From positions 62,001 to 126,000 of the forward strand of contig NZ_BMKQ01000002.1 in assembly GCF_014644415.1 (NCBI RefSeq): a DNA stretch of 64,000 nucleotides, read 5' to 3'. A program made the position numbers and the translations under genes. Below the pieces are notes generated by a model, which saw only the letters and a program-made list of their open reading frames with translations, was not told where the DNA came from and did not search any database. Positions 1 to 13,355 of this stretch are shown piece by piece; the stretch's first letter is position 1, and the number at the start of each line of letters is the position of its first letter. The DNA is from Marmoricola endophyticus (GTDB lineage Bacteria > Actinomycetota > Actinomycetes > Propionibacteriales > Nocardioidaceae).

Positions 1-1
1 C

Positions 2-190
2 TGCTATGTCGTGGGGGACTCTGCTCCGTACGGTGTGCACGTCCCGGTGGAGCGCTGGCTGGGCGAACTAGCGCTTGCTTCGGGCTTCCGTAAATGGCGT
101 TTCGAGAAGGTGCGCGACCGTAATACCAAGTGGAAAAATCGCAAGCACACGCACCCGCTTCACGAGGGCCGACTTTGGATCGAGGGCTGA
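2..190 (+). CDS. DNA methyltransferase, C-terminal 62 residues (cut by window edge)
   Basis: The frame is open from base 2 to a TGA at 188-190. It resembles the C-terminal end of type II DNA modification methylases, with a GELALASGFRKW segment, then FEKVRDRNTKWKNRKH and a final HEGRLWIEG. The catalytic and SAM-binding motifs lie upstream of the window, so the type (adenine or cytosine) cannot be stated. The next gene starts 4 nt downstream, the usual layout of a methylase with its cognate endonuclease. GC is visibly lower here than in the chromosomal part of the window, consistent with transfer. Confidence 0.65.
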   Translation, partial: CYVVGDSAPYGVHVPVERWLGELALASGFRKWRFEKVRDRNTKWKNRKHTHPLHEGRLWIEG

Positions 191-193
191 GGT

Positions 194-1060
194 TTGGCTA
201 GAAGTCCGGCGCACCGCATCGGCCAGATCATCGGCTACGCAATGGAGCAGTCTGTAGAGCCCTTGCTACAAGCGGTCGCGGAAGAGCATGGCTTGTACCT
301 TGACACCATTGGTCCGCGCCCTGCGCGAGACGGTAAACGCCTTGTCACTTGGGAAAATGACTCTGGCGGTAAGAACAATCTCGACTTCGTTCTTGAGCGG
401 GGTGGCACACCCGAGAATTTCGGGGAACCGGTTGCCTTCATCGAATCGGCATGGCGTCGTTACACAAAGCACTCGGTCAACAAGGCAGGTGAGATCACGG
501 CGGCCCTCTTGCCACTGCTTCAGCGACACTCGCGCTCGCGGCCGTTTCTTGGGGCGGTCGTCTCTGGAGTGTGGACCGAGGGCGGGATAGGCCACATGGT
601 GGGGCAAGGGGTTCGGGTACTCCATATCCCACGCGAGGTGATCGTTGATTGCTTCGCGAGGTTTGGAATAGATGCTGACTACGACGAGCACACGACGATC
701 GACCACCTCCAAATGCAGGTCGACGCGTGGGACGCGCTGAGCGATTCCGAGCGACAGTCGCTGTCTCGGTCGCTTATGCAGGAAAGTCCAGATCGATATG
801 CCATATTTCGCGAAACGCTCGACCGTCACCTACGCCGCCGCGTGAGCCGCGTATTGATTCTCGCTCTGCACGGTGAGCAAGCATTCTTCAACACAGCGGC
901 AGAGGCTGTGCAGAGTCTACGCGAATACGAGAACACGACGCACGAGCCGATGCTTCTCGCTCGAATCGAAGTGCAGATCTACTACACAAACGAGGACCGG
1001 ATCGAGGCGCAATTTTCCGAGCCGGTAGAAGCGATCGCGTGGCTCGAGAGCCAGGCGTAA
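194..1060 (+). CDS. Putative type II restriction endonuclease (PD-(D/E)XK-like)
   Basis: A 288-residue protein directly downstream of the methylase end. TTG at 194 is chosen because GAGGG at 182-186 sits 7 nt before it; ATG at 241 is an alternative. A possible nuclease core is Asp64 in NNLDFVLE followed by a beta strand ending in AFIESAW (Glu84) and a basic RRYTKHS segment, which suits a degenerate PD-(D/E)XK fold. The AFIESAWRRYTKHS region is the kind found in endonucleases encoded beside methylases. Function is inferred from this motif and from gene order; the recognition site cannot be read from the sequence. Composition is less GC-rich than the host genes. It may protect the element or its host against other phages. 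Confidence 0.6.
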   Translation: MARSPAHRIGQIIGYAMEQSVEPLLQAVAEEHGLYLDTIGPRPARDGKRLVTWENDSGGKNNLDFVLERGGTPENFGEPVAFIESAWRRYTKHSVNKAGEITAALLPLLQRHSRSRPFLGAVVSGVWTEGGIGHMVGQGVRVLHIPREVIVDCFARFGIDADYDEHTTIDHLQMQVDAWDALSDSERQSLSRSLMQESPDRYAIFRETLDRHLRRRVSRVLILALHGEQAFFNTAAEAVQSLREYENTTHEPMLLARIEVQIYYTNEDRIEAQFSEPVEAIAWLESQA

Positions 1061-1360
1061 TCGCGAGTCGAGAAGCGATGCCGGGCGTGAGTGGCGCACT
1101 GTTTCTCGCCCGGCTGCCTAACTAGGCGTCATGCGGTCCGCGCGGCGCTCGGCATGATCCCGCACCTCGGTCACGCAGGCCCCCGTTTCGTCATGTCCTG
1201 TTTCATGCGCGAGCGAACTCGCCGCCGCTGAGGCGTCGCGCAAGCCGCAACGGGGCACGATCAAATTCTTACGCACTTGTTCGCGCTGGTCAGAGCGTCG
1301 CTGGGATTCTTACGGTTCTCTCCTCTTGACCGAGGCCGGTTGTGGGCTAACGGTCTCCCC
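1061..1360. other. Gap between the endonuclease gene and a doubtful small frame
   Basis: I see no convincing gene on either strand here. The segment is less GC-rich than the chromosome, like the restriction gene before it. No clear terminator follows the stop at 1060. Confidence 0.4.
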
Positions 1361-1594
1361 ATGAATGCATACGAGACTGCCACAAATCGGACCGCCGAGA
1401 TCCTTCACGCCGCGATCGGGGAGGCTGTGGAGGACGTCGCCTTCGCGGACCTTGTCGACTCGGTCGTCGACGCGAACGCGGGCGCGTTCCTCGACCCGAT
1501 CGAGCCGGCCCTCCGGCTCGCCAGCCGGGTAGCGGCACGCACAAGAGCCCCGGTCCCTCGCGAGGAGGGCCGGGGCCTCGTCGTGCTCAGGTGA
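1361..1594 (+). CDS. Doubtful small protein (77 aa)
   Basis: The frame starts at ATG 1361 with a protein-like stretch (ETATNRTAEILHAAIGEAVE), probably helical and acidic. Its last third runs through the hairpin at 1547-1576 and becomes Arg-rich, so the true gene may be degraded or may not exist. No good ribosome binding site precedes it. No family is recognised. Confidence 0.25.
   Translation: MNAYETATNRTAEILHAAIGEAVEDVAFADLVDSVVDANAGAFLDPIEPALRLASRVAARTRAPVPREEGRGLVVLR
1547..1576. terminator. Bidirectional hairpin between convergent transcripts
   Basis: GCCCCGG at 1547-1553 pairs with CCGGGGC at 1570-1576, and inner CCCTC/GAGGG bases extend the stem. It lies 10 nt past the stop of the leftward gene ending at 1587 and so probably ends the leftward block. 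It could also stop rightward transcription from the restriction genes. Confidence 0.65.
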
Positions 1595-1943
1595 GCGTGT
1601 CGTAGGCGATCGCTCTCGCGACTGCCTGTTCGCGTTCGCGGAGGGCGGCCTCGTCGACGTCGACGTCGCCGTTAGCGTGGTCGAGGATCTCTTCGTCTAC
1701 CGGGGGTAGGCCGAGCCGCTCGCGGATGTCGTCCTCGATGAGGCATGCGGCGCGGAAGATGACGTCGGCGTACTCGCCGCCGGGCTCCAGACTGAGCGCG
1801 TCGGCGTAGGAGGTCGCCTTCTCCGAGATCGTGGCGCCGAGGAGTGACTCCGGATCGAAGCGCGGGTAGCCCGGGAGACCTTCGTCCGCGAGGTCGAGGC
1901 GACCGCTGCCGGTCGCGCTGTGCTGTTGCTTGCGTCGGGCCAT
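1587..1943 (-). CDS. Hypothetical 118-aa protein following the terminase small subunit
   Basis: The start is ATG at 1943, preceded by a GGGAGG-type ribosome site within the end of the terminase small-subunit gene, 4 nt away. The protein has a basic N-terminus (MARRKQQ) and an acidic C-terminal half with a run of Asp and Glu (DHANGDVDVDEAALREREQ), probably helical. It is the last gene of the leftward block before the terminator. In phiRv1-like elements this position usually holds a protease or capsid gene, and this protein resembles neither. No family is recognised. Confidence 0.6.
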   Translation of the reverse strand: MARRKQQHSATGSGRLDLADEGLPGYPRFDPESLLGATISEKATSYADALSLEPGGEYADVIFRAACLIEDDIRERLGLPPVDEEILDHANGDVDVDEAALREREQAVARAIAYDTLT

Positions 1944-1947
1944 ACGC

Positions 1948-2331
1948 TCAGCGCCTCCCGTTCGCGGCGCCCCAGCGGGTTCGCGCGGCCTTGCGAGCAG
2001 CGCGGGAGACGCCGGTACCTCCGGCGGAGGGGCGCTCGTCGTCGTCGGTCGGGAGGTCAAGGAGCCCGAGGAGCCGGACGAGGATCGCGCGCTGCTGCCG
2101 TGCCTCGACGACCGCAGGAGAGACCTTCCCCGCGTCGGTGACGTGTCCGTCACGACGGACCGCCGCGTCGAGCGCGGCCAGGGTGTCCAGGGTCCGCGCG
2201 ACCTCTGCGAGCGCGGGCTCCTCGACGGCGCCGAGGTCGAACTCCTCCGCGACGCGGAGCCAGTACGTCCGGCCAGCGTCGCCTAGGTCGGCCGGAGGCT
2301 CCGGCCGGGTGTCTTCTTCGGTCTCCGTCAT
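1948..2331 (-). CDS. Phage terminase small subunit, P27-like
   Basis: A 127-residue protein starting at ATG 2331, with AGAGGAGG about 9 nt upstream. It shows the P27-like pattern: LGDAGRTYWLRVAEEFDL, then an acidic helix (EPALAEVARTLDTLAALDAA), then EARQQRAILVRLLGLLDLP and a basic tail (RAARKAARTRW). In cos phages this protein recognises packaging DNA and recruits the large subunit. No large subunit follows; the next gene is short and then comes a terminator. A lone TerS is typical of phage satellites that redirect a helper's packaging motor. The family call is good; the satellite role is inference. Confidence 0.75.
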   Translation of the reverse strand: MTETEEDTRPEPPADLGDAGRTYWLRVAEEFDLGAVEEPALAEVARTLDTLAALDAAVRRDGHVTDAGKVSPAVVEARQQRAILVRLLGLLDLPTDDDERPSAGGTGVSRAARKAARTRWGAANGRR

Positions 2332-2924
2332 GCGGGAGACCTCCTCTCAGGGTGTTGAAACGTCGTGAGCGGGCCGGGTCCCGTTGAACACGGCATGCAT
2401 CCAGACCGCGTCGCGCTATGCCTCCCGGGCTTGCGGGGGAGAGGGGGAGGGGGAGTCCCTCCCCACCCCATCCCGTCGCGAGGATCACCCGATTGAACCG
2501 GGGTGCGGACGTCAGGGTCTCCTGCGCTGTTGCGTACACGCTCATCGTCGCTCGGCTGTGACGCTCGACGATGCTCGGGCCGCTGTGGTCGCACGCGCGC
2601 CGAGCCGTCGATCGTCGTGGACTCTCGCTCGGTCGTGGGCGTGTCGACCAGCACGAGGACGAGGTCGCGTGACGGTAGCCCTGCCTGTGGCTCGTGCGGC
2701 ATGCGCTGTGTAGTGCCTGTCTGCCCGACCACGGGTGCGCCGAGGGCGAGCGATCCACCGGCACGCCGGGCACGAGAGACAGTGCCCGCGTCGGGGTGCA
2801 GTCGAGGAGACCCCCGGTGGTCCTAGACGAGCGAGCCGAGGGGGCAGGGTGCGCGAGGACACGGGGCCGGGAGGGTCGTCGTCGACTTGACCCGGGCCGT
2901 GTCCTCGCGCCCTGTCCGCCGCTG
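2332..2924. other. 593-base stretch with no clear gene, upstream of terS; possible packaging (cos) region
   Basis: Several frames are open on the minus strand but none looks like a known protein and none has a good start signal. Next to terS there is a sharp purine block around 2430-2455 (repeats of GGGGGA) followed by a pyrimidine block near 2457-2472. In cos-type actinophages the cohesive-end site often lies just upstream of the small terminase gene, so this is a candidate packaging site. That reading is speculative. Confidence 0.3.
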
Positions 2925-3137
2925 CTACTCCTCGTCGGCGCCCTCACGCTGGCGGGCTGCCTGTGAAGAGATCGCGTCGAGGGTGCTGCCGACCGGATCA
3001 GCGGGATCGAAGCGGGGCCGGTGTGCTGCTTTCCCGCTCCTGCCGATCCGGCGTGCGCCTGTCCGTGCGCGCCTGTCCCTGCCCGTAGGACTGTTCACGA
3101 TGTAGTCGGAGGCCGGTCGTATTCCGGGGCCGGTCAC
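2925..3137 (-). CDS. Small hypothetical protein (70 aa)
   Basis: GTG at 3137 overlaps the TGA stop of the upstream 43-aa gene (GTGA), suggesting translational coupling and supporting this otherwise weak frame. The first half is basic and Arg-rich; the second half (FDPADPVGSTLDAISSQAAR) looks like an ordinary helix. It ends in an acidic ADEE tail. No family is recognised. It is the last gene of the coupled chain before the 593-base gap. Confidence 0.45.
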   Translation of the reverse strand: MTGPGIRPASDYIVNSPTGRDRRARTGARRIGRSGKAAHRPRFDPADPVGSTLDAISSQAARQREGADEE

Positions 3138-3265
3138 GTGTCTTCACGGTCCTCGACCCGCTCAACGGTGCCGTGAGGCTCGCCGGTCGACTCCTCGGAG
3201 AGTCCGCCGATCTCGCGTACGAGCCATGCCGGGAGCCGGTCCGGCGGTAGTGCTCGCGGCATCAT
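3134..3265 (-). CDS. Very small hypothetical protein (43 aa)
   Basis: ATG at 3265 overlaps the TGA of the upstream gene (ATGA), with GGGAGGG a few bases before it, and its own TGA overlaps the next GTG. The peptide begins MMPRALPPDRLPAWLVREIG and ends in an acidic tail with Glu and Asp. Codon third positions are mostly G or C. Short coupled genes of this kind are typical of phage early regions. Function is unknown. Confidence 0.5.
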   Translation of the reverse strand: MMPRALPPDRLPAWLVREIGGLSEESTGEPHGTVERVEDREDT

Positions 3266-3414
3266 GCCCTCCCTTGCTGGCGCCGGATCTGCTCCAGGAT
3301 CGCGTTCTCGTCGGCGTCACGCTGGATCAGTTCGGTGGCCGCGCTCGCGACGTCGTCGTCTTCGGATCGTGAGAGTTCGACCAGTACGAGATCGTGGATC
3401 GCTTCGCGCTCCAT
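3262..3414 (-). CDS. Small hypothetical protein (50 aa)
   Basis: ATG at 3414 overlaps the stop of the coiled-coil gene by one base (TGATG). The peptide MEREAIHDLVLVELSRSEDD continues as an acidic helix and ends EQIRRQQGRA. It looks like a compact helical protein. No family is recognised. The overlaps on both sides suggest one polycistronic message. Confidence 0.55.
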   Translation of the reverse strand: MEREAIHDLVLVELSRSEDDDVASAATELIQRDADENAILEQIRRQQGRA

Positions 3415-4145
3415 CACTTCTCCTCGCTTGTCTCGTCGGCGCGCGTCCAGGTGGCGTCGTGGGTCCGGGTTCGGGTGTCGCAGATCATCGCGGCCCGCTT
3501 CTCGGTGGTGAAGAAACGGCCGAATGTGCCTGACGTGGCGCGTACCTCGACGAGCCCGGCATCGGTTCCCGCGACCTCGACCATCCACGGTGTGTTCTCG
3601 CGGTCGGTGTCCGCGAGTAGGTCAGCGACACCGACTGCGCCGAACTGCCCGCTCGCCGGATCCCACGGAGACTCCATCCGGCTCGGGGGCGCGCTGAGCC
3701 CGCCGGGGTCGTTGTTCTCCGCCTCCAGCGCCAGGATGAGTGCGTCGACCTTCGCCGCGTGCGCCTCCAACATGAGACGCGCCTCGACTGCGCGGATCTC
3801 CTCGTGAGCATCCTCTATAGCCGAGAGGAACTCCTCAGCGGCTCGTCGTGCTGCGCTGGACGCACGCCCCGCAATCGCCCTCTCCTCCCGCGTCGCTGCC
3901 TCGATCTCTAGGCGCCGGTCCTCGCTACCCCGTGCGCGGGTCGAGTGATGTCCGGCGACGCTCTCTGCGCGGGAGAGGGCGTCCTGAGCGGCCTGAGACT
4001 GCTCGTTCGCCGTGTCGAGTGCCTTCGCCGTCTTCTCGACGCTCTTGGGGAGGGTCTTGTCCGAGAGCACTCGGTAGCCCGGCGCGTCCTCCACGATCGT
4101 CTTACACGAGCCCTGTCCGCGCCCGCGAAGCCTCATCTTCTGCAT
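3414..4145 (-). CDS. Coiled-coil hypothetical protein (243 aa)
   Basis: Start ATG 4145, with GAGAAGGAA about 6 nt upstream. Residues 40 to about 140 are rich in Ala, Glu and Arg with heptad-like spacing (SVEKTAKALDTANEQSQAAQ onward) and should form a long coiled coil. The C-terminal third is different, with a possible compact domain around TPWMVEVAGTDAGLVEVRAT. No signal peptide or membrane segment is seen. Long coiled coils can be scaffolds or structural adaptors in phage, but nothing here fixes a role. It lies in the chain of coupled genes between the 137-aa gene and the 50-aa gene. Confidence 0.6.
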   Translation of the reverse strand: MQKMRLRGRGQGSCKTIVEDAPGYRVLSDKTLPKSVEKTAKALDTANEQSQAAQDALSRAESVAGHHSTRARGSEDRRLEIEAATREERAIAGRASSAARRAAEEFLSAIEDAHEEIRAVEARLMLEAHAAKVDALILALEAENNDPGGLSAPPSRMESPWDPASGQFGAVGVADLLADTDRENTPWMVEVAGTDAGLVEVRATSGTFGRFFTTEKRAAMICDTRTRTHDATWTRADETSEEK

Positions 4146-4161
4146 CTCTGATTCCTTCTCT

Positions 4162-4575
4162 TCAGTCGGTGGTGTCGGTGGTGTCGTCGAGGTCGAACCG
4201 GGGGAGACGTTCGGCGTGGTCGACCTCGCAGCGGATCCGCTCCTGGACGTCGCCGGGAATACCCGTGCTCTGCGCCGCCCGGCAGGTATCGACCGCCGCC
4301 CGCGAGTGCGCCAGCATCGCCGCATGCGGGGTCCAGCCCATCCCGATAGCGGAGATCGAGGAGTAGAGCGCGGCCCTGTACCGCGCGCGGTACTCCTCGA
4401 CCCCGCCACGCGATGCCGACCCGAACGGGATCGGACCTGCGACGTCGGAGGCTGCGTGCCTGCCCGAGCGGCGACCAAGCGCATTAAGGGCGTCGCGTCG
4501 AGGTCCTCGCCGGGCATGGTTGCCACTCGCGGGGCCGCGCTCCCGTGGCCGTGAGGGTCGTGACGTCGAGTCCAT
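4162..4575 (-). CDS. Hypothetical protein (137 aa)
   Basis: ATG at 4575 has a near-perfect AAGGAGG ribosome site at 4585-4591, among the best in the element. The first 45 residues are basic and low in complexity. The central part (VEEYRARYRAALYSSISAIG, then MGWTPHAAMLAHSRAAVDTC) is helical, and the C-terminus is acidic (DDTTDTTD). The next gene starts 16 nt downstream. No family is recognised. Confidence 0.55.
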   Translation of the reverse strand: MDSTSRPSRPRERGPASGNHARRGPRRDALNALGRRSGRHAASDVAGPIPFGSASRGGVEEYRARYRAALYSSISAIGMGWTPHAAMLAHSRAAVDTCRAAQSTGIPGDVQERIRCEVDHAERLPRFDLDDTTDTTD

Positions 4576-5130
4576 AGGCTCGACCTCCTTATGAGCCGCC
4601 GCCGAACGATTCGACGTGCGGAGTCCTGCACCGCACGCGCTCTAGGTCGAACACGTCCGGAAGAGATCCCCGACCGGGCACGGGCGCGCGGTGAGCGCGC
4701 TACTCGCCAGCGCCGCGCCTACTGAGAGCGCGACTAGACGAGCCCAGGGCAGTGCCCGGCCAGGGGGAGACCGCCGGGAGCCACGCGTCCGGACCTGAAT
4801 CCGAGGTGCTCGACCAGGCAGTCAGCCCCGCTCGATTCCGGAAGCAGGACCGGGACGAGCGGGAGATCAGATATCAGCTGGAAAGGGTGCGCGGCTCACC
4901 CGCGCCGCCTACGCGGCTGCGCCGCGAGGTCGAGAGCGACTCCAGGCGGGTCGCGTGCAGCCCGCGACCGCCGCGCCGTGCGTCGGCCCCCAGGCCGTAC
5001 GCCGGGGCGGGTTGGCAGGGCCCGGCCATGTGGATAGGAAGGTCTCCAGGCCGGGTCCTGCCGATCGGGGGTCGGACAGCCGCGCAGGCGGGCGCGCTCG
5101 ACTCGACGCGAGCCAGATGCGGCGGAGCCG
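4576..5130. other. 555-base stretch without a convincing gene
   Basis: It holds the ribosome site of the leftward gene starting at 4575 and probably its promoter. A 51-codon minus-strand frame begins at ATG 5030 but has a poor ribosome site and an Arg/Gly-rich product, so I do not call it. I see no repeat or hairpin that stands out. Confidence 0.4.
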
Positions 5131-5499
5131 CTAGACCGCGCGGGCGAAGTCGACCGCGACGACGTTGTCCGGCAGCGGCTCCGCACGCCGGGGGAGTCGA
5201 GCGGTAGGTGCCGGAGCCGGAGCCGGCGACTCCGCTCGGACGCGCCGGGCGAGAGCATCTGAGACGGTCCGCGCGAAACGCGAGTCTCGCTCGATCCGCT
5301 CCGCCGCGAGCGCGAGCCGTGCTCCGGCCGCGCGGCGGTCCGCTTTGGTCGCGGTGTGTGCCGTCTCGTGGACGAAGTAGCCGAGCGTGAGCCGGAGGTC
5401 TTCGCCGTCGAGGTCGCGGGTCGCGGTGTGCGCCTCGCGGTCGAGGACCTCCGCGACGTCGTCCGCGCTCAGGGTGTGTCGGTCGCCGTGAACGATCAT
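5131..5499 (-). CDS. Hypothetical protein (122 aa)
   Basis: ATG at 5499 overlaps the TGA of the 286-aa gene (ATGA), and GAGGAGAGGAA lies just upstream within that gene, so the two are probably translated together. Residues 10-95 are acidic-to-basic helices (SADDVAEVLDREAHTATRDL, then LGYFVHETAHTATKADRRAA). A Pro/Ala-rich linker follows, and the end is hydrophobic (VVAVDFARAV). The HETAH string resembles an HExxH zinc motif but lacks a supporting third ligand, so I do not call a protease. No family is recognised. Confidence 0.55.
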   Translation of the reverse strand: MIVHGDRHTLSADDVAEVLDREAHTATRDLDGEDLRLTLGYFVHETAHTATKADRRAAGARLALAAERIERDSRFARTVSDALARRVRAESPAPAPAPTARLPRRAEPLPDNVVAVDFARAV

Positions 5500-6356
5500 G
5501 CGCTCTTCCTCTCCTCGTGCGGGTCGGTGGTGGTTGTCGCTTCGTCGTGGATCCACGACGGGACCGCGTATTCGCGATCGCGGATCCGGGGACCGATCGA
5601 GTCCTCCAGGAGTCGGAAGAAGTCCGGCTGTGGCAACGCGCGAGGAGTGTCGCGGTAGGCGAGCCAGACGTCGGAGGACTTCACTCGTCCGCGCGGGCCA
5701 GAGCCCCAGCCCTCCGCGCGAGCGGTCTGCGCGAACCATGCGCCGACGTGCTCGACCAGCGCGGTCGACGGCAGACCGAACCGGTCGGGGTCCTCGCGCA
5801 GCACGCGCGCGGTCTCCCCGAACCGGGACGGTCCGCCCGCGAGGAGCCCGGAGAGCGACGAGGCGGACGCTTTCACCGCGCCGCGCCGGATCTGCTCCTC
5901 CTCCGCCTGCTGTAGTCGGGTCCGGTGGTGGCGTAGCGGTGGCTCTTCGGCGCGGATCGCGAGGACAGTCGCGTTCGACTCGCGCGCCAGGCGTTGCGCC
6001 TCGACGAGGAGTGCGTCCGCGACCTCCGAGAGTGCCGTCACAACCTGTCCGAGCGAGACCGGAGCCCAGGGCTCCGAGGCCTCAGAGCGAGCCCACCATC
6101 CGGCCGAGCGCGCGGAGTCGTTGCCGCGCGGGCGTCCGTCGTGTGCGACGCGGCCACTGAGGAGCGGCTCCAGGTAGCGCGCGAGCCGGACCGGCTTCGG
6201 GAAGCCGCGCGCCTTCCGGAAGACGCCGAAGTCGTCGTCAAAGGAGATCGCCTCGCGCCAGGCCGGGCCGTAGAGGATCGCCGGGACGTCGTGGGCGGGG
6301 TCGGCCAGGCCGACCGCGAGGTCTTCGTAGTCGTCGGTATGCAGGAACGAGAGCAT
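5496..6356 (-). CDS. Hypothetical protein with a D5/primase-like C-terminal winged-helix module (286 aa)
   Basis: The C-terminal 60 residues (RVKSSDVWLAYRDTPRALPQ, then DFFRLLEDSIGPRIRDREYA) follow the pattern of the winged helix at the end of phage and satellite primase-helicases. The middle has a long helix (RHHRTRLQQAEEEQIRR). No Walker A, DEAD or primase active site is present, so it may be a separated DNA-binding part of a replication or regulatory protein. Start ATG 6356 has only a weak ribosome site. The stop overlaps the next gene. The module assignment is a pattern match by eye. Confidence 0.5.
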   Translation of the reverse strand: MLSFLHTDDYEDLAVGLADPAHDVPAILYGPAWREAISFDDDFGVFRKARGFPKPVRLARYLEPLLSGRVAHDGRPRGNDSARSAGWWARSEASEPWAPVSLGQVVTALSEVADALLVEAQRLARESNATVLAIRAEEPPLRHHRTRLQQAEEEQIRRGAVKASASSLSGLLAGGPSRFGETARVLREDPDRFGLPSTALVEHVGAWFAQTARAEGWGSGPRGRVKSSDVWLAYRDTPRALPQPDFFRLLEDSIGPRIRDREYAVPSWIHDEATTTTDPHEERKSA

Positions 6357-6385
6357 CGGGAAGTCTTTCGTCGTCGGTGTCGCTG

Positions 6386-6637
6386 TCAGGTTGAGAGCCG
6401 GGGCCGTGCGGCCGGGTTCAGTGGTCGCGCGGGAGGTTCAGGGGCGGGGTCGCGGGCGGTGCCCGCCCCGGTCCAGGCCCGCGCGTGGCGGGTGAACCGG
6501 GGCGGGATGCCTCGACGACGCGGACCGGGGAACCAGGCCGGTCCGTGCTCACCGCGAGGACTCTCGATCTCGCGGAAGATCAGGGGGACGGGGAGAGCGT
6601 CGGGATCCGTGTAGACCTCTCTCCCCGCGCAAGAACA
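6386..6637 (-). other. Open minus-strand frame without a start codon, beginning inside repeat copy 1
   Basis: Between a TGA at 6638-6640 and the TGA at 6386-6388 one frame is open for 84 codons and reads like protein (GEHGPAWFPGPRRRGIPP and nearby). It has no ATG, GTG or TTG. The frame enters the 82-bp repeat, where it encodes AGREVYTDPD; in repeat copy 2 the same frame gives AGREVYTNPDGW and then stops. It may be a decayed gene, a gene joined by frameshift, or chance. Confidence 0.25.
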
Positions 6638-6679
6638 TCAATCGAGAAGAGGGTCACTAGCGACACTCCCGTCACGGTC
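6598..6679. repeat. 82-bp direct repeat, copy 1
   Basis: Matches copy 2 at 7133-7214 in the same orientation with 10 differences over 82 bases, the inner 53 bases having only 3. It lies 242 bases upstream of the leftward gene starting at 6356. It probably carries promoter and operator elements for the leftward transcript. Confidence 0.8.
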
Positions 6680-6724
6680 CAGGCGCTCCAGCGTCACGAT
6701 CCGTGTAAGGGAGCACGGATCTCG

Positions 6725-7006
6725 TCAGGTTGCGGGCTCCAGGCTCGCGAGGATCGTGCCGTGCGTCTCGCGGAAGGCCGGGACCGTGGCGACGAGCGCC
6801 GCGTACGCCGCGCGCTCTTCGGCCGTGCCGTGCTCGCGGACCAGGTCCTCGAAGGTCGCCAGCGAGTCGCGCTCGCGGCGCGCGCAGCGGTCACGCGAGA
6901 GAGCGACCCGGCATCGCGGCGAACACGTCCGTCGATCCGACCGAGCACCCGGGTCGAGGAGACCCCCACACCACGCGCACACGCGCCTTCGTCTCGTACT
7001 GCTCAC
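6725..7006 (-). CDS. Small zinc-ribbon protein (93 aa)
   Basis: GTG at 7006 is chosen because GGAGAGGAG lies about 5 nt upstream; a GTG at 7054 would add 16 residues without a ribosome site. Cys10 and Cys13 (CAWC) with Cys28 and Cys32 (CSPRC) form a short zinc ribbon of the kind found in small phage and actinobacterial DNA-binding proteins. A helical region with ATFEDLVREHGTAEERAAYA follows. It sits between the two copies of the 82-bp repeat and is the first gene leftward of the integrase, so it could be an excision or regulatory factor. That role is inference. Confidence 0.6.
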   Translation of the reverse strand: MSSTRRRRVCAWCGGLLDPGARSDRRTCSPRCRVALSRDRCARRERDSLATFEDLVREHGTAEERAAYAALVATVPAFRETHGTILASLEPAT

Positions 7007-7132
7007 GGGCTCTCCTCTCCTCGCATCATTCCCGGCCGGGACGGTCCCGGACACGGGTCGCGCGCTAGGCGCTTCGTTGCGTGTACTGAAGGTGGAGTCG
7101 GCCTGAGACCCCCTCGCTGCTCACTCACCAGC

Positions 7133-7214
7133 CGTCGGGATTCGTGTAGACCTCTCTCCCCGCGCTAGAACATCAACCGAGAAGACGGGTACTGCCGTCA
7201 CTCTCGTCACGGTC
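7133..7214. repeat. 82-bp direct repeat, copy 2
   Basis: Second copy of the repeat at 6598-6679, same orientation. It lies 127 bases upstream of the zinc-ribbon gene. The best-conserved part contains AGAACATCAA and GTAGACCTCTCTCCCCGCGC. Placement before two separate leftward genes suggests a duplicated promoter/operator cassette. Confidence 0.8.
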
Positions 7215-7318
7215 GGGCCCGCGAGACCGAGACCGCGAGCGCCTCCAGGAGCGCCCGAGAGGAAGCGACCGGGCCCGGGAGGCTTGGCTCTGCTCAGCGC
7301 GCCTCAGTGGAAACGAGA

Positions 7319-7352
7319 GGGCCCCACCGGAGGAAGTCTCCAGCGGGGGCCC
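7319..7352. terminator. Hairpin terminator after the integrase gene
   Basis: GGGCCCC at 7319-7325 pairs with GGGGCCC at 7346-7352, and CCGGAG/CTCC bases extend the stem. It starts 17 nt past the integrase stop on the minus strand and probably separates integrase transcription from the leftward block. Confidence 0.7.
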
Positions 7353-7368
7353 GCGAAGGTCGAGGCGA

Positions 7369-8982
7369 TCAGTCACCCACCCAAGACACGCGCATCCGAC
7401 TCGATGGATCGAAGCGCGTCCCTCGCTTCGGTGCGCGGCTGACTTCGACCCTCTCGATCGCGAGGCGAAGCAGATCGCGCTGCTCCGGAACGCTTGCGGT
7501 CGTGAACGCCGGGAGCGACAACTCCGGATCGAGGAGTGCGCCGAGATCCGCCTCCGGCTGAGGTAGTTCGGCCAGCCGAAGCACGAGACGCGCGCGCTGC
7601 TCTTCCAGTCGCGCTGAGACGCGTGCGTACCGCTCTATGTCGAGCGTGGCCTTGACGTAGTGGTCGTCATCCGCACTCGCGAGACGCGTCTTGACGTCCT
7701 CCAGGTCGGACCGAAGCCGCTCGCGCTCGCGCAGCGGAGCCGGGTCGAACTTCTGCAGCCAGCGGTCCGCGACCGCCGCGAGCAGCGGGGACTCCGGCTC
7801 GTCGTGGAGTTGCGCCAGACGCCCCACCCAGGCACGGACGACGGCCTCCTCGACGGCCTCGACCGACACGCTGAGCGGGGCTGCACAGTCGCTCGCGTCG
7901 GCCTTCCACTTCCGGCATCGGTACGAGTTGCCGAACGTGTGCGCGGTCCGACCACATGAAGCGCAAACCAACAGCCCGCCGAGGAGGCTCTTCGGCTGCC
8001 GTACGGGGCGCGAGCCCCGCCCGTACTGGCGAAGCCGCGAGTCCATGACGGAAAGGAGTCGAGCCTGTTCGGCCTCGCTTGCGATGGGCTCGCGGCCCGG
8101 TGCCATGAGCGAGACGGTCTCGCCCGTGTCTGGATGCCGCCAGGCGACTACTGCGGCCTTCCATCTACCATGCTCATCGGTCGTCTTCTCCGGCATGAGG
8201 CCGGCGAGTCCCGGGGAGCGGAGCGCGGCGGAAAGCGCGGACGGTCGCCAGAGGCTCTCCTTGCATGGCTTCTCATCCGTCCCGCAGTCGCAACCCGGCC
8301 CGGGGAGCCGGTCGCGCTTGGCCAGGTGCTTCTTCGCGCGCTGCGTCAGGACGCCGCGCTCGTTGAAGTCGCGGCAGATCGTCATGAGCGACTCGCCCTC
8401 CAGCACCCGCCACACGACCTCGCGCATAGACGAGAACTCAGGCTCCAGCGGCACGAAGTGTCGCGCGTCGTCGACTGCGTACCCATACGGCGGAAGACCG
8501 CCGAGGTATTGCCCGGCGAGGCGGTCCGTGTGCTTGCGACTCTTCACCCGAAGTGACGTGTTCGCACTCTCTGCGCGAGAGATCTCGCTCATGGTGACGA
8601 TCGGGAGTCGTGAGGCGTTGCCGCTGCTCGTGTCCAGCCCGTCGCGGAGAAACACGAGGCGACCGCCGACGCGTTCGACGTCGTCGAGGACTACGCCGAT
8701 CTGTCCCGCTCCGCGCCGCGAGAGACGATCGAGTTTCCAGACGGCAAGTGTTCGGACCTCTGCATTTGCGAGTGCAGCGAGAGCGCTCTCGAAGCCCGCG
8801 CGTTTGACGTCCCGATAACCCGATCGACCCGCGTCGCTCCAGACTTCGCGGACCCTGAGCCCTTCACGATCCGCCCAGGCGCGGAGGTCCCGTTCCTGAC
8901 GTTCGATCGAATCCGCGCCTTCAGCGTCAACACTGAGCCGCAGGTAGAGGTCGACTTCTTCGCCGGTCGTGCTCTTGTCCAT
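7369..8982 (-). CDS. Large serine integrase
   Basis: A 537-residue site-specific recombinase that catalyses integration between attP and attB. The N-terminal resolvase domain has Y13-L-R15-L-S17 with Ser17 as nucleophile and the helix KLDRLSRR (83-90). A recombinase domain follows, then a zinc ribbon with Cys340, Cys343, Cys356 and Cys366, then a coiled coil near 410-470 expected to control directionality. Length is normal for the family. ATG at 8982 has GAGGAGG 4-5 nt upstream. The gene reads away from the junction, as usual when attP lies just before int. No accessory directionality factor is recognised, although the zinc-ribbon protein is a candidate. The gene looks intact. Confidence 0.95.
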   Translation of the reverse strand: MDKSTTGEEVDLYLRLSVDAEGADSIERQERDLRAWADREGLRVREVWSDAGRSGYRDVKRAGFESALAALANAEVRTLAVWKLDRLSRRGAGQIGVVLDDVERVGGRLVFLRDGLDTSSGNASRLPIVTMSEISRAESANTSLRVKSRKHTDRLAGQYLGGLPPYGYAVDDARHFVPLEPEFSSMREVVWRVLEGESLMTICRDFNERGVLTQRAKKHLAKRDRLPGPGCDCGTDEKPCKESLWRPSALSAALRSPGLAGLMPEKTTDEHGRWKAAVVAWRHPDTGETVSLMAPGREPIASEAEQARLLSVMDSRLRQYGRGSRPVRQPKSLLGGLLVCASCGRTAHTFGNSYRCRKWKADASDCAAPLSVSVEAVEEAVVRAWVGRLAQLHDEPESPLLAAVADRWLQKFDPAPLRERERLRSDLEDVKTRLASADDDHYVKATLDIERYARVSARLEEQRARLVLRLAELPQPEADLGALLDPELSLPAFTTASVPEQRDLLRLAIERVEVSRAPKRGTRFDPSSRMRVSWVGD

Positions 8983-9029
8983 ATGTCCTCCTCGTTGGTC
9001 GGGGAGGGAGTCGGCCGGGCCATGCCCTA

Positions 9030-10055
9030 TTGCTCACCGAAGTTCGGCGCAATGTCCACTCCCGCGAGGAGATCTGGATCAACGATCCCTCGCGGGTCTT
9101 CGTGGCCCGGGCGGGCCGGCACGAGCTGACCTCCACGATCCTGACCAGTGGCCAGGTCGCGGAGCTGGTGGAGCGGATGCTGAAGACCTCGGGTCGGCGC
9201 ATCGACGTCAGCCAGCCGTTCGTGGACGCGATGCTGCCCGACGGGCACCGGTTGCACGTGGTGCTGGAGGGGATCTCGCGGGGGTTCTCGGCGGTCAACA
9301 TCCGCAAGTTCGTGCTCCGTGCGGCGCAGCTGGGTGACCTCGTACGCCTGGGCAGCCTGACCCAGCAGGCGGCGGACTTCCTGTCCGCGGCGGTGCTGGC
9401 CGGGCTCAACATCCTGGTCGCGGGAGCCACCCAAGCCGGCAAGACCACCATGCTCAACTGCCTCGCCGCCGCGGTCCCGGGCGGCGACCGCATCGTCTCC
9501 GCCGAGGAGGTCTGGGAGCTCCGCTTCGCCCACGCCGACTGGGTGCCGCTCCAGTGCCGGCAGGCCGGGCTCGAGGGCACCGGCGAGGTGACCCTGCGCG
9601 ACCTCGTGCGCGAGGCGCTCCGGATGCGACCCACGAGGGTGATCGTCGGGGAGGTGCGCTCGGCCGAGGCGCTCGACCTGATCCTCGCGCTGAACTCCGG
9701 GCTGCCCGGCATGGCCACCATCCACGCGAACTCCGCCCGCGAGGCCCTGGTGAAGCTGTGCACGCTGCCGCTGCTGGCCGGCGAGAACATCTCCTCACGG
9801 TTCGTCGTCCCCACCGTCGCGGCCTCGACCGACATCGTCGTCCACCTCGGCCTCGACACCCGCGGGGTGCGGCGGGTCAACGAGATCGTCGCCGTCCCCG
9901 GCCGGGTCGAGCACGACATCATCGAGACCGAGCCGCTGTTCGTCCGGGGCGCCGAGGGCCTGGTCCGTACCGCAGGGATGCCCGGGCGGCTGGACAGCTT
10001 CGAGCGCGCCGGGATCGACGTCCACGCCCTGCTGCACGACGAGCGCGTGCGCTGA
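9030..10055 (+). pseudogene. tadA: Tad/Flp pilus assembly ATPase TadA (CpaF), 5'-truncated by the element
   Basis: From EEIWINDPSRVFVARAGRHE onward the protein is a CpaF/TadA-type secretion ATPase with Walker A GATQAGKT (132-139 from the TTG at 9030), Walker B and His boxes, and the normal C-terminus. The family has well over 100 residues before EEIWIN, and these are replaced by 12 unrelated residues (MLTEVRRNVHSR) derived from the element. The 5' part should lie beyond the left end of the element. The fragment keeps the ATPase core but lacks the N-terminal oligomerisation part, so it is unlikely to work. Its TGA overlaps the tadB ATG. Confidence 0.9.
9036..9072. other. Candidate element-chromosome junction (hybrid att site)
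   Basis: TadA homology begins at the GAG GAG ATC codons (9066-9074). The integrase gene starts at 8982, leaving about 85 bases for the attP arm. A short palindrome, CCGAAGTTCGG, lies at 9037-9047. The exact crossover dinucleotide cannot be fixed without the left junction or an uninterrupted relative. Confidence 0.55.
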
Positions 10056-10906
10056 TGGGCGTCGTCGTCGGGCTCGGGCTGGGCACCGGGCTGCTGCTGA
10101 TCTGGTCGGCGTTCGTCGTACCGCTCACCCGGCAGGAACGTCGTACGAGGGGCCGCGTCGACGAGCTGCTCGCGACCGCCGGGCTGGGCGGGGTCTCGGC
10201 AGCCAGCTTCGTCGTGCTGTGCGCGATGTGCGGGCTCGTGGCGCTCGCGGCGGTGCAGGTCGCCTCACGGACGCTGCCCGTCGCGGTGGCGTTCGGTCTG
10301 ATGGGTGCCTACCTCCCGGTCGCGATCGTGCGCGGCCGGGTCCGCCGCCGTCGCCGGGAGTTCGCCGAGGTGTGGCCCGAGGCCGTCGACAACCTGGCCA
10401 GCGCGGTGCGCGCGGGGCTGTCGCTGCCCGAGGGGCTGGCCGCGCTCGCCGTACGCGGACCCGAGCCGCTCCGCGAGTCGTTCGACGGGTTCGCGCTGGA
10501 CTACCAGGTCACCGGCCGCTTCGGGGAGAGCCTCGACCGGCTCAAGGACCGGCTGGCGGACCCGGTGGGGGACCGGGTCGTCGAGGGGCTGCGGGTGGCG
10601 CGCGAGGTCGGCGGGGGAGACCTGGGCCGGCTGCTGCGCAACCTCTCGGCGTACCTCCGCGAGGACGCCCGCACCCGCTCGGAGCTGGAGTCCCGGCAGA
10701 CGACGACCGTCAACGGCGCTCGGCTCGCGGTCGCGGCACCGTGGCTCGTCCTGCTGCTCCTGTCGTTCCAGGGCGACGTGATCCACCGGTACGCATCGGC
10801 GGGCGGGGTGGTGGTCCTGGTCGGCGGAGCGGTGGCGTGCGCGGTCGCGTACCGCCTGATGCTCTGGATCGGCCGGCTCCCGGCGGAGCGGCGGGTGCTC
10901 GGATGA
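10055..10906 (+). CDS. tadB: Type II/IV secretion inner-membrane protein TadB
   Basis: A 283-residue TadB/GspF-type platform protein of the Tad pilus machine. It has an N-terminal membrane segment (LGLGTGLLLIWSAFVV), a second near residue 60, a cytoplasmic region with the typical EVWPEAVDNLASAVRAGLSL and GGGDLGRLLRNLSAYLRED segments, and two C-terminal membrane segments. ATG 10055 overlaps the tadA stop (TGATG). The TadB/TadC pair anchors the ATPase and the growing pilus. The gene looks intact although its partner ATPase gene is split. Confidence 0.9.
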   Translation: MGVVVGLGLGTGLLLIWSAFVVPLTRQERRTRGRVDELLATAGLGGVSAASFVVLCAMCGLVALAAVQVASRTLPVAVAFGLMGAYLPVAIVRGRVRRRRREFAEVWPEAVDNLASAVRAGLSLPEGLAALAVRGPEPLRESFDGFALDYQVTGRFGESLDRLKDRLADPVGDRVVEGLRVAREVGGGDLGRLLRNLSAYLREDARTRSELESRQTTTVNGARLAVAAPWLVLLLLSFQGDVIHRYASAGGVVVLVGGAVACAVAYRLMLWIGRLPAERRVLG

Positions 10907-11829
10907 GCCCGGCGCTGTGGGGAGCCCTGCTCGGCGGGTCCTTCGGGCTCGGGGTGGTGCTCGTCCTGCAGCGACGGCTGGCGGCGCGTCGTACGCCGAT
11001 CGACCTGCGGGTGCTGCCGTACCTCCGCGACCTGCCGCAGCTCGGTGCGGTGCGGTCCACGACGCCGGAGACCTCCGCGCTGGTCGGCGTGTTCGGCCCG
11101 TTCCTGCGCGGCGCGGCGGACCTCGTCGAGCGGGTCCTCGGTGGCTCGGCGTCGATCCGACGGCGGCTGGAGCGCGCCGACCTCGAGCTCTCCGTCCACG
11201 ACTTCCGGGTGCAGCAGGTGGTCTGGGGGCTGTCGGCGTTCGCGCTCGCCGCCGTGCCGTCGCTGCTGATCTCGCTGCGGGCACCGGACCGAGCCGTACC
11301 GCTGCTGATCTTCTGCCTCGCCGCGCTGGCGACCGGCGTCCTCGTCCGCGAGAACCGCCTGACCGCGCAGGTCGCCGCTCGCGAACGACGCATCCTCGAG
11401 GAGTTCCCGACCGTCGCCGAGCTGCTCGCCCTCTCGGTGGCGGCCGGGGAGAGCCCCGTCGCCGCCCTCGACCGCGTCGTACGACGCACGCGCGGCGCGC
11501 TCACCTCCGACCTCGGGCGGGTGCTCGCCGACGTCCGGACCGGTGTCCCCGTCACCCACGCCTTCGACGCCCTGGCCAGCCGGACCGGAGTCCCCGCGGT
11601 CGCCCGGTTCGCCGAAGGGCTCGCGATCGCGGTCGAGCGCGGCACCCCGCTCTCGGAGGTGCTGCACGCGCAGGCCGCCGACGTCCGCGAGGTCGGCAAA
11701 CGTGCGCTGATCGAGGCCGGCGGCCGCAAGGAGATCGGGATGATGGTCCCCGTCGTCTTCCTGGTTCTCCCGGTCACCGTCGTGTTCGCGTTCTGGCCCG
11801 GGCTGGTCGGCCTGCGGTTGGTGAGCTGA
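10903..11829 (+). CDS. tadC: Type II/IV secretion inner-membrane protein TadC
   Basis: A 308-residue partner of TadB with the same fold. It has an N-terminal membrane segment, two near residues 110-150, the GspF-type helix EEFPTVAELLALSVAAGESP and a C-terminal segment with KEIGMMVPVVFLVLPVTVVF. ATG 10903 overlaps the tadB stop (ATGA), showing coupled translation. It belongs to the interrupted tad operon. Confidence 0.9.
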   Translation: MSPALWGALLGGSFGLGVVLVLQRRLAARRTPIDLRVLPYLRDLPQLGAVRSTTPETSALVGVFGPFLRGAADLVERVLGGSASIRRRLERADLELSVHDFRVQQVVWGLSAFALAAVPSLLISLRAPDRAVPLLIFCLAALATGVLVRENRLTAQVAARERRILEEFPTVAELLALSVAAGESPVAALDRVVRRTRGALTSDLGRVLADVRTGVPVTHAFDALASRTGVPAVARFAEGLAIAVERGTPLSEVLHAQAADVREVGKRALIEAGGRKEIGMMVPVVFLVLPVTVVFAFWPGLVGLRLVS

Positions 11830-12034: not shown

Positions 12035-12442
12035 ATGTCCGAGCGCGCCCGGCGTCGCGACCGCCGCGCCGAGGAGTCCGGGGCGGCCGTCGTCGACTTC
12101 GTGCTCGTCAGCCTGGTGCTGATCCCGCTCGTGCTGGGGATCATGCAGGTGGCGCTGGTGATGTACGTCCGCTCCACGCTGGCCTCCGCCGCCGCGGAGG
12201 GCGCGCGCTACGGCGCCACCATCGACCGCGGACCGGGTGATGCCGTCGTACGCACCCGCAGCCGGATCCGTGGAGCGATCGCCGACCGGTTCGCCGGCAA
12301 CGTCAGTGCCGACCGGGCGCGGGTCGACGGGGTGGCGACGATGGCCGTCCGGGTCAGGGCGAAGGTGCCCGCGCTGGGCCTGTGGGGCCCGGGCGTCTCC
12401 CTCGACGTGCAGGGGCACGCGGTGCAGGAGGTCGTGCCGTGA
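12035..12442 (+). CDS. TadE-like pseudopilin
   Basis: 135 residues. Basic N-terminus, then EESGAAVVDFVLVSLVLIPL leading into a single membrane helix and an extracellular part with AAAEGARYGAT, the characteristic TadE signature. These proteins act as minor pilins or initiators in Tad secretion. It starts 3 nt after the pilin gene, and its stop overlaps the next gene. Confidence 0.85.
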   Translation: MSERARRRDRRAEESGAAVVDFVLVSLVLIPLVLGIMQVALVMYVRSTLASAAAEGARYGATIDRGPGDAVVRTRSRIRGAIADRFAGNVSADRARVDGVATMAVRVRAKVPALGLWGPGVSLDVQGHAVQEVVP

Positions 12443-12915
12443 GTGCCGTACGCACCCTCGTGCGGCGGCTGCAGGAGCGTCGTACCGACGAGGCCGGCAC
12501 CGCGATCGTCGAGCTCGTCTGGCTGGCGATCCTGCTGCTGGTGCCGCTGGTCTACATCGTGGTCGCGGTCCTGCAGACGCAGCGGGCCTCGTACGCCGCC
12601 ACGACCGCGGCTCGCTCGGCCGGACGCGCATTCGTCACCTCCGAGACCGAGGCGGCCGCGCCGGGACGCGCCCGTGCCGCTGCCGCGCTCGCCTTCCAGG
12701 ACCAGCACGTGCCGTCCGGGCGGATGCGGCTGACCCTCACCTGCCGGCCCGATCCCGCCAACTGCCTGGCGCCCGGCTCGGTGGTCCTCGCCGATGTCCG
12801 TACGTCGGTGCTGCTGCCGCTCGTGCCCGACGCGCTCGGCGGCAACGCGCCGCGCATCCGGGTCGAGGCGAGCAGCCGCTCGCCGTACGGCACCTTCCGC
12901 GAGGACCGGCCGTGA
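12439..12915 (+). CDS. TadE/TadF-like pilus assembly protein
   Basis: 158 residues from GTG 12439, which overlaps the preceding TGA. It has the TadE pattern DEAGTAIVELVWLAILLLVP followed by an ATTAARSAGRAFVTS helix. A Cys pair in the C-terminal half (TCRPDPANC) may form a disulfide outside the cell. It probably sits in the membrane as a minor pilin. Its stop overlaps the next GTG, so the whole set is one coupled message. Confidence 0.8.
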   Translation: MSAVRTLVRRLQERRTDEAGTAIVELVWLAILLLVPLVYIVVAVLQTQRASYAATTAARSAGRAFVTSETEAAAPGRARAAAALAFQDQHVPSGRMRLTLTCRPDPANCLAPGSVVLADVRTSVLLPLVPDALGGNAPRIRVEASSRSPYGTFREDRP

Positions 12916-13355
12916 CCGGCCGCTCGACCAGGAGAGGCGACGAGGGCGGCAGCGTCACGCCGCTGATCATCGGCTTCGCGCTCGTGCTGGCCGTGCTGGT
13001 GGCCGTCGTGGTCGATGCGTCGGCGGCCTACCTGCGACGGCAGAGCCTGGACCACCTGGCCGACTCCGCGGCGCTGGCGGCCACGGACGGCATCCAGGGA
13101 CGCGAGGTCTACACCGGTGGTCTGGGGGCGGTCGCCGAGATCGACGAGGCGACCGCGCGCCGCTACGCCGCCGCCTTCGTGGCCGCCTCGGGTGCCGAGC
13201 GGCGCTACCCGGGACTCCGGATGAGCGTGACCGCGCGGGACGACGTCGTCGTCGTACGCCTCGCCGCGCCGATGGACCTGCCGCTGAGCGTCCCCGGCGT
13301 CAGCACGCCGAGGGTCACCGGGTCGGCGTCCTCCGAGGTCCGGGTCGCGCCGTGA
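12912..13355 (+). CDS. TadG-like protein (short, Rv3654c type)
   Basis: 147 residues from GTG 12912, overlapping the previous stop. It begins GDEGGSVTPLIIGFALVLAV, a single membrane helix, then DASAAYLRRQSLDHLADSAA, the repeat-like motif of TadG/Rv3654c proteins that handle the secreted fibre. It lacks the von Willebrand domain of long TadG proteins. It is the last gene of the tad operon and converges on the small leftward gene next door, 0 nt apart. Confidence 0.8.
   Translation: MTGRSTRRGDEGGSVTPLIIGFALVLAVLVAVVVDASAAYLRRQSLDHLADSAALAATDGIQGREVYTGGLGAVAEIDEATARRYAAAFVAASGAERRYPGLRMSVTARDDVVVVRLAAPMDLPLSVPGVSTPRVTGSASSEVRVAP

Follow-up and report, generated by a model that had tools for sequence, protein, structure and literature searches.

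The window analysed here is a stretch of 64,000 nucleotides from Marmoricola endophyticus (C2:62001-126000 of genome G000). At its left end a mobile element with a large serine integrase splits tadA, the gene for the ATPase of the Tad pilus. The 3' part of tadA adjoins the element inside the window, and the 5' part, which matches the intact genes of relatives, lies beyond the other end of the element (Table 1). Both junctions share the same 8 bp, CGAGGAGA, and the distance from core to core is 11,095 bp. When the flanks were joined in a script, an open TadA frame was obtained that reads ...DPEVEEIWINDPSRVF..., as in intact relatives; the insertion point, which is the attachment site attB, falls in the codons of EEIWIN. 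The coding sequence is split by insertion in the manner of elements that disrupt competence genes.

The original prediction, drawn from the window only, stated that TadA homology begins abruptly at EEIWIN, that an integrase gene lies close to this point and that the remaining tad operon is intact. All three statements are borne out: the homology runs from 9066 to the stop at 10055, the integrase gene lies 84 bases from 9066, and tadB, tadC and the TadE- and TadG-like genes are open with Pfam matches. As it also anticipated, the tadA 5' part with a matching core is present upstream of window base 1, and relatives that lack the element have a longer, uninterrupted tadA frame that includes the 5' part; the same truncation did not occur in element-free relatives.

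Table 1. Features of the window and of the left junction outside it. Positions are those of the window unless given as C2; window base 1 is C2:62001.
Feature	Position	Strand	Evidence or remark
5' part of tadA	C2:59683-59976		outside the window, same contig and strand as the 3' part; matches intact relatives
att core CGAGGAGA, attL	C2:59970-59977		same 8 bp as attR
Element portion in the window	1..9064		left end 2,031 bases before base 1
Type II DNA methyltransferase, 3' end	1..190 (whole gene L008:5919-7190, begins before base 1)	+	PDLC03306 E 4.5e-231, 1-422 of 422
Type II restriction endonuclease, 288 aa	194..1060	+	PDLC03525 E 1.9e-61, 1-285 of 288
Terminase small subunit-like gene	1948..2331	-	phrog_1496 E 3.7e-12
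Large serine integrase, 537 aa (Resolvase, Recombinase, Zn-ribbon)	7369..8982	-	starts 82 bp from core; PF00239, PF07508, PF13408; phrog_95 E 5.7e-75
att core CGAGGAGA, attR	9065..9072 (C2:71065-71072)		right junction
3' part of tadA (Tad pilus ATPase), EEIWIN to stop	9066..10055	+	PF00437 (T2SSE) E 7.6e-38; tblastn of intact relatives
tadB (T2SSF)	10055..10906	+	PF00482 E 3.5e-11
tadC (T2SSF)	10903..11829	+	PF00482 E 8.1e-14
TadE-like gene	12035..12442	+	PF07811 E 3e-11
Small gene between TadE and TadG	12382-12915		
TadG-like gene	12912..13355	+	PF13400 E 1.1e-09

A short core in attL and attR and a restored attB are what large serine integrases leave, and the protein itself combines the Resolvase, Recombinase and zinc-ribbon domains within the usual length of such enzymes (about 450-650 aa). 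It was the sole PF00239 match found in the genome at a threshold of E 0.001. In the derived attP, the best inverted symmetry among the centres tried was at the GA dinucleotide inside the core (9 of 20 positions), which points weakly to this dinucleotide as the likely crossover point.

The methyltransferase and endonuclease of the element form a pair that spans nearly the entire PADLOC models. Eleven open reading frames (ORFs) of the element, picked from ORF lists, were compared with Pfam and PHROGs; apart from the small terminase subunit, none gave a convincing match to a capsid, tail or other structural protein; one ORF gave a portal-family hit (E 0.022). The capsid, portal and tail genes that make up a complete tailed prophage were not found among these 11 ORFs. 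The gene content agrees with that of a phage satellite (11.1 kb, an integrase and phrog_1496, without a full virion set), and from its genes the element looks like a phage satellite or an integrative element rather than a whole prophage. Three ORFs on the minus strand (5499-6356, 3417-4631 and 5134-5739) had no Pfam or PHROGs match at E 0.1.

A first scan with the tadA 3' part (58 genomes, own genome included) revealed a second split gene in G010. We then scanned 341 genomes of the host family with full-length TadA and re-searched 64 of them (30 + 34), consisting of intermediate scorers and G304, a known split. Together with G000, G010 and G027, this made 67 genomes examined, and tadA was in pieces in 56, or 56 of 341 for the family. 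The others were three with a frame break and no insertion (G136, G290, G312), one with an intact gene (G100) and seven that could not be assigned (G063, G098, G302, G119, G151, G096, G116). The re-search left out about 17 intermediate-score genomes (e.g. G117, G198, G267, G288, G301, G348). The pieces were on the same contig and strand in 44 genomes, on the same contig and inverted in one, and on different contigs in 11, a pattern that a break between contigs could also produce; the safe count is therefore the 45 splits with both pieces on one contig. About 50 of the 341 genomes had no match above the level of paralogs, which puts the split share among carriers of the gene at roughly one fifth. 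G304, which is counted as split, has a second, intact tadA copy on another contig of an assembly that is 85% complete.

In five genomes (G249, G214, G279, G282, G144) the tadA halves are 75 kb to 1.33 Mb apart, the widest case being G249, whose pieces lie on opposite strands of the same contig at a distance of 1.33 Mb. Such distances suggest that the split locus underwent large rearrangements or accretion.

At E 1e-30 the window integrase was absent from the other genomes of the genus (24 genomes), and at E 1e-20 it matched in four of the 341 family genomes, in all four at or between the tadA pieces. In G215 the integrase, 63% identical to that of the window, sits at the same codons, and in G027 and G304 a different one (31-32% identical) lies a few codons downstream. 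No relative was found when the window integrase alone was compared with a collection of genome contigs, and a two-member integrase alignment found one Streptomyces integrase there (27%), whose retrieved flank lacks tadA. A scan of viral contigs returned a single weak relative. The tadA halves of G215 (L051:2416-15220, L084:6348-7202) enclose a tyrosine recombinase and two serine integrases that belong to different site groups, and a short remnant of tadA codons between its integrases marks stacked insertions.

We mapped 37 insertion loci in 35 genomes. Inserts were 4.1 to 20.9 kb long, a range biased by the choice of mostly inserts under 20 kb. About a dozen tadA positions are hit; on a 373-residue query they lie near residues 82, 84-90, 132, 140, 160, 204-210, 232-238, 267, 285, 294 and 308, with one more near 318-325 from genomes without fetched regions. 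An integrase ORF overlaps the end of the tadA match or lies at most 100 bp from it at 32 of the 37 loci, and within 750 bp at 36. Five sampled integrases match PF00239 and PF07508, or PF00589. At all four loci mapped near residue 160 the integrase is of the tyrosine type and the core measures 11-18 bp. Single linkage groups the 31 serine integrases into 14 clusters at 40% identity, into 8 at 35% and into 5 at 30%. Recurrence across species with divergent integrases is also a mark of elements that disrupt competence genes. Site labels change 8 times on the serine-integrase tree, which has long branches, versus 18.1 times when shuffled; integrase lineages thus mostly stay with one site, and more than one of them arrived at tadA independently. 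Two insertions were present within one tadA in G304, G331 and G253. An intein or intron as the interrupting sequence was rejected because the mapped inserts are 4-21 kb long and nearly all have an integrase at the junction.

The elements themselves are of mixed kinds (L008, L053-L085). In a scan of 160 ORFs, nearly all drawn from the 283 called on 32 loci, some matched head, portal, terminase and tape-measure proteins and others primases, restriction and abortive-infection proteins. In four elements, L069 (G237), L072 (G211), L077 (G127) and L050 (G027), the integrase has an open frame in phase with the tadA 5' part that precedes it, which would permit a fusion or expression driven by the tad promoter.

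Scanning IMG/VR with the TadA 3' part of the window gave five contigs. In L126 and L128 a related serine integrase lies 42 and 63 bp from the tadA piece, respectively, and both ends of L128 consist of tadA pieces. On L124 a tadA piece is accompanied by a tyrosine integrase fragment at the far end, and in L125 the integrase is not adjacent to tadA. The integrase stretch of L127 is identical to that of G192, and L127 is therefore not independent.

Decay of the split genes was scarce. A stop inside the trimmed tblastn matches was found in 1 of 37 split genes, and the ratio of nonsynonymous to synonymous changes (pN/pS) to the nearest of 40 intact genes had a median of 0.243 for split versus 0.196 for intact genes (Mann-Whitney p = 0.76). 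With wider matches, stops appear in one of the tadA pieces in several mapped genomes (e.g. G102, G157, G161, G180, G195, G253, G304, G331); in G180, the one compared, these lie beyond the trimmed match, beside the junction. From the little decay it follows that the elements are mostly young or often leave, and the data fit both alike.

Three other genes were used for comparison. The Competence domain of ComEC is present in the window's own genome, and it was present and unbroken, in frames of at least 743 aa, in 36 of 36 genomes (20 tadA-split, 10 intact and 6 without the ortholog). A T2SSE paralog with 36-45% identity was contiguous, as counted by eye, in 53 of the 64 re-searched genomes, and the other 11 had no copy at that level. 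A second Tad-type ATPase, whose gene precedes two T2SSF genes in the window's own genome, was abandoned as a negative control: in a screen of the 341 genomes with 36 re-searched, it was itself split in ten (G009, G149, G178, G206, G361, G320, G168, G340, G305 and, on two contigs, G247), and it is therefore treated as a second target. In G009 (C1:146417-159444) it is split near the Walker A motif by about 12 kb. Fisher tests of tadA gave p = 0.005 versus ComEC and p = 7e-12 versus the second ATPase; the samples were drawn differently, and these values serve as a guide only.

We think it probable that the Tad pilus is inactivated to the benefit of mobile elements, tadA being a multi-site integration target in this actinobacterial family and the window one instance of a recurrent phenomenon. 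Elements with unrelated integrases, many of them carrying phage-related genes, recombine into different conserved stretches of tadA; the window element entered through its serine integrase at attB, leaving CGAGGAGA at both ends. The split would abolish a working TadA and hence the pilus. With less certainty, loss of the pilus may be selected because the pilus would take up DNA, as it does in Micrococcus luteus, and disabled uptake would keep transformation from deleting the element. This reading is favoured by the frequency of split tadA, the variety of sites and integrases, the splits of the second Tad-type ATPase, the unbroken ComEC domain, the IMG/VR contigs with such elements and the Micrococcus luteus deletions. 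The recurrent splitting suggests that disabling the pilus helps mobile elements persist, and by analogy the convergent targeting of the Tad pilus is best read as a parallel of the insertions in comM, comK and comYC. A bolder form of this reading is possible, and we propose it tentatively: the Tad pilus would be the DNA-uptake pilus of the family, tadA, with the second tad ATPase, would be the counterpart of comM, serine integrases of 14 clusters (at 40% identity), together with several tyrosine integrases, would have converged on it to block transformation, and the undamaged halves and four in-frame integrases would reflect frequent excision and return.

Several observations weigh against selection for pilus loss by way of DNA uptake. 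Any role of the Tad pilus in transformation of these hosts is putative and drawn from Micrococcus luteus, whose tad genes may be orthologous to this tadA. ComEC, the other obvious competence target, had its domain hit by no insertion in the 36 genomes, and the controls were drawn in another way than the cases. No integrase was found for the G195 insertion. With only 5 serine-integrase clusters at 30% identity (8 at 35%), many of these integrases may share distant ancestry. The bias of the insertion sites toward conserved DNA also fits mere convenience. Beyond the family, 59 genomes of a phylum sample of 198, including the window's own, matched the last 138 TadA residues, and the 58 outside the family showed no clear upstream frame truncation, short frames being seen in three (G418, G406 and, at the edge of a contig, G529). 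An identity of 63% or higher is reached by just 13 of the 58, and no more than four come from the host's own class, which makes this sample a weak test of the reach of the phenomenon.

Convenience is one alternative, and we regard it as rather unlikely. On this account tadA is a conserved and dispensable attB whose motif codons give a broad host range, and loss of the pilus is not selected. Insertion sites do lie in better conserved DNA than random positions in 20 intact genes (p = 0.0006 for 15 site labels and p = 0.0027 for the 11 separate ones), an ortholog found throughout the family offers one target in many hosts, and the integrases keep to their own sites. Convenience would not lead us to expect that the T2SSE paralog stays contiguous where it is present, that many unrelated integrases chose different sites of one gene, or that both tad ATPases are hit.

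Superinfection exclusion, in which the Tad pilus is a phage receptor that elements remove against competing phages, is unlikely in our estimation. It predicts an identical insertion pattern, and the window element also carries restriction-modification; ORFs of a few other elements match methyltransferases or other PADLOC models. By itself, however, it does not explain why the ATPase rather than the pilin is the target, a choice that conservation may account for.

The original prediction further raised a possible reversible pilus switch, in which piliation would depend on excision; the element would then leave when the pilus is needed and restore tadA. In Listeria, active lysogeny at comK involves a serine-integrase element in the coding sequence, with exact restoration of the gene on excision. 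The tadA element likewise sits in a coding sequence with an exactly restorable frame; excision in Listeria follows a host signal, and a signal of that kind is conjectural for the tadA element. The scarce decay of the halves and the four other elements with an integrase in frame with the tadA 5' part would suit such a switch, but recent insertion accounts equally well for undamaged halves, and neither an excised or circular form nor a strain pair with and without the window element was seen. The precise serine-integrase insertion and the restorable frame predicted for the window are thus upheld. The wider pattern of many integrases, about a dozen sites and two tad ATPases fits inactivation of the pilus in the service of the elements better than a dedicated host switch, and a programmed reversible switch, while possible, appears improbable. 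An assembly artefact, to which the splits spread over different contigs (11 of 56) might be ascribed, is already largely refuted by the junction integrases at splits in single-contig genomes (G161, G211, G123, G212) and has next to no probability.

Few models of natural transformation are known in Actinomycetota. If elements do keep destroying the Tad motor, the Tad pilus would be marked as a machine whose loss profits mobile elements, and the idea of a conflict between elements and transformation would reach a further gene and a further phylum, the dozen or so sites in one gene serving as natural replicates. The tadA insertions also supply many pairs of integrase and attB.

The part assigned here to the pilus has its precedent in Micrococcus luteus, where the ORFs of two tad clusters were deleted and all but one of the deletions abolished transformation, with polar effects possible (PMC4322843). 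The sites mentioned for actinobacterial integrative and conjugative elements are mostly tRNA sites (PMC3218068). A survey of large serine recombinases describes targets enriched in DNA competence genes and names a magnesium chelatase gene as target of 12.4% of site-specific recombinases; the words ATPase and secretion system are absent from its main text, and a T2SSE entry in its supplement is possible (PMC10083194). In keeping with the original prediction, which knew of no description of tadA as a serine-integrase site, no publication title on tadA as an integration target was present among the matches listed, from a coverage that leaves many journals outside. In Acinetobacter baumannii, diverse elements that often carry defence genes inactivate comM in 22% of strains (PMC11472951). 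There too one gene is interrupted by diverse elements, whereas the tadA splits are between species and mostly involve serine integrases. Insertions in comM, comYC, comFA and comK have been read as protecting the elements from being deleted by transformation, and divergent integrases use two distinct sites in comFA (PMC4774983). Those cases and ours are alike in that site-specific elements split a gene for DNA uptake or recombination in many species; here an actinobacterial family is concerned, the one gene that is split encodes the Tad pilus ATPase and is entered at about a dozen sites, and a role in transformation is assigned by analogy.
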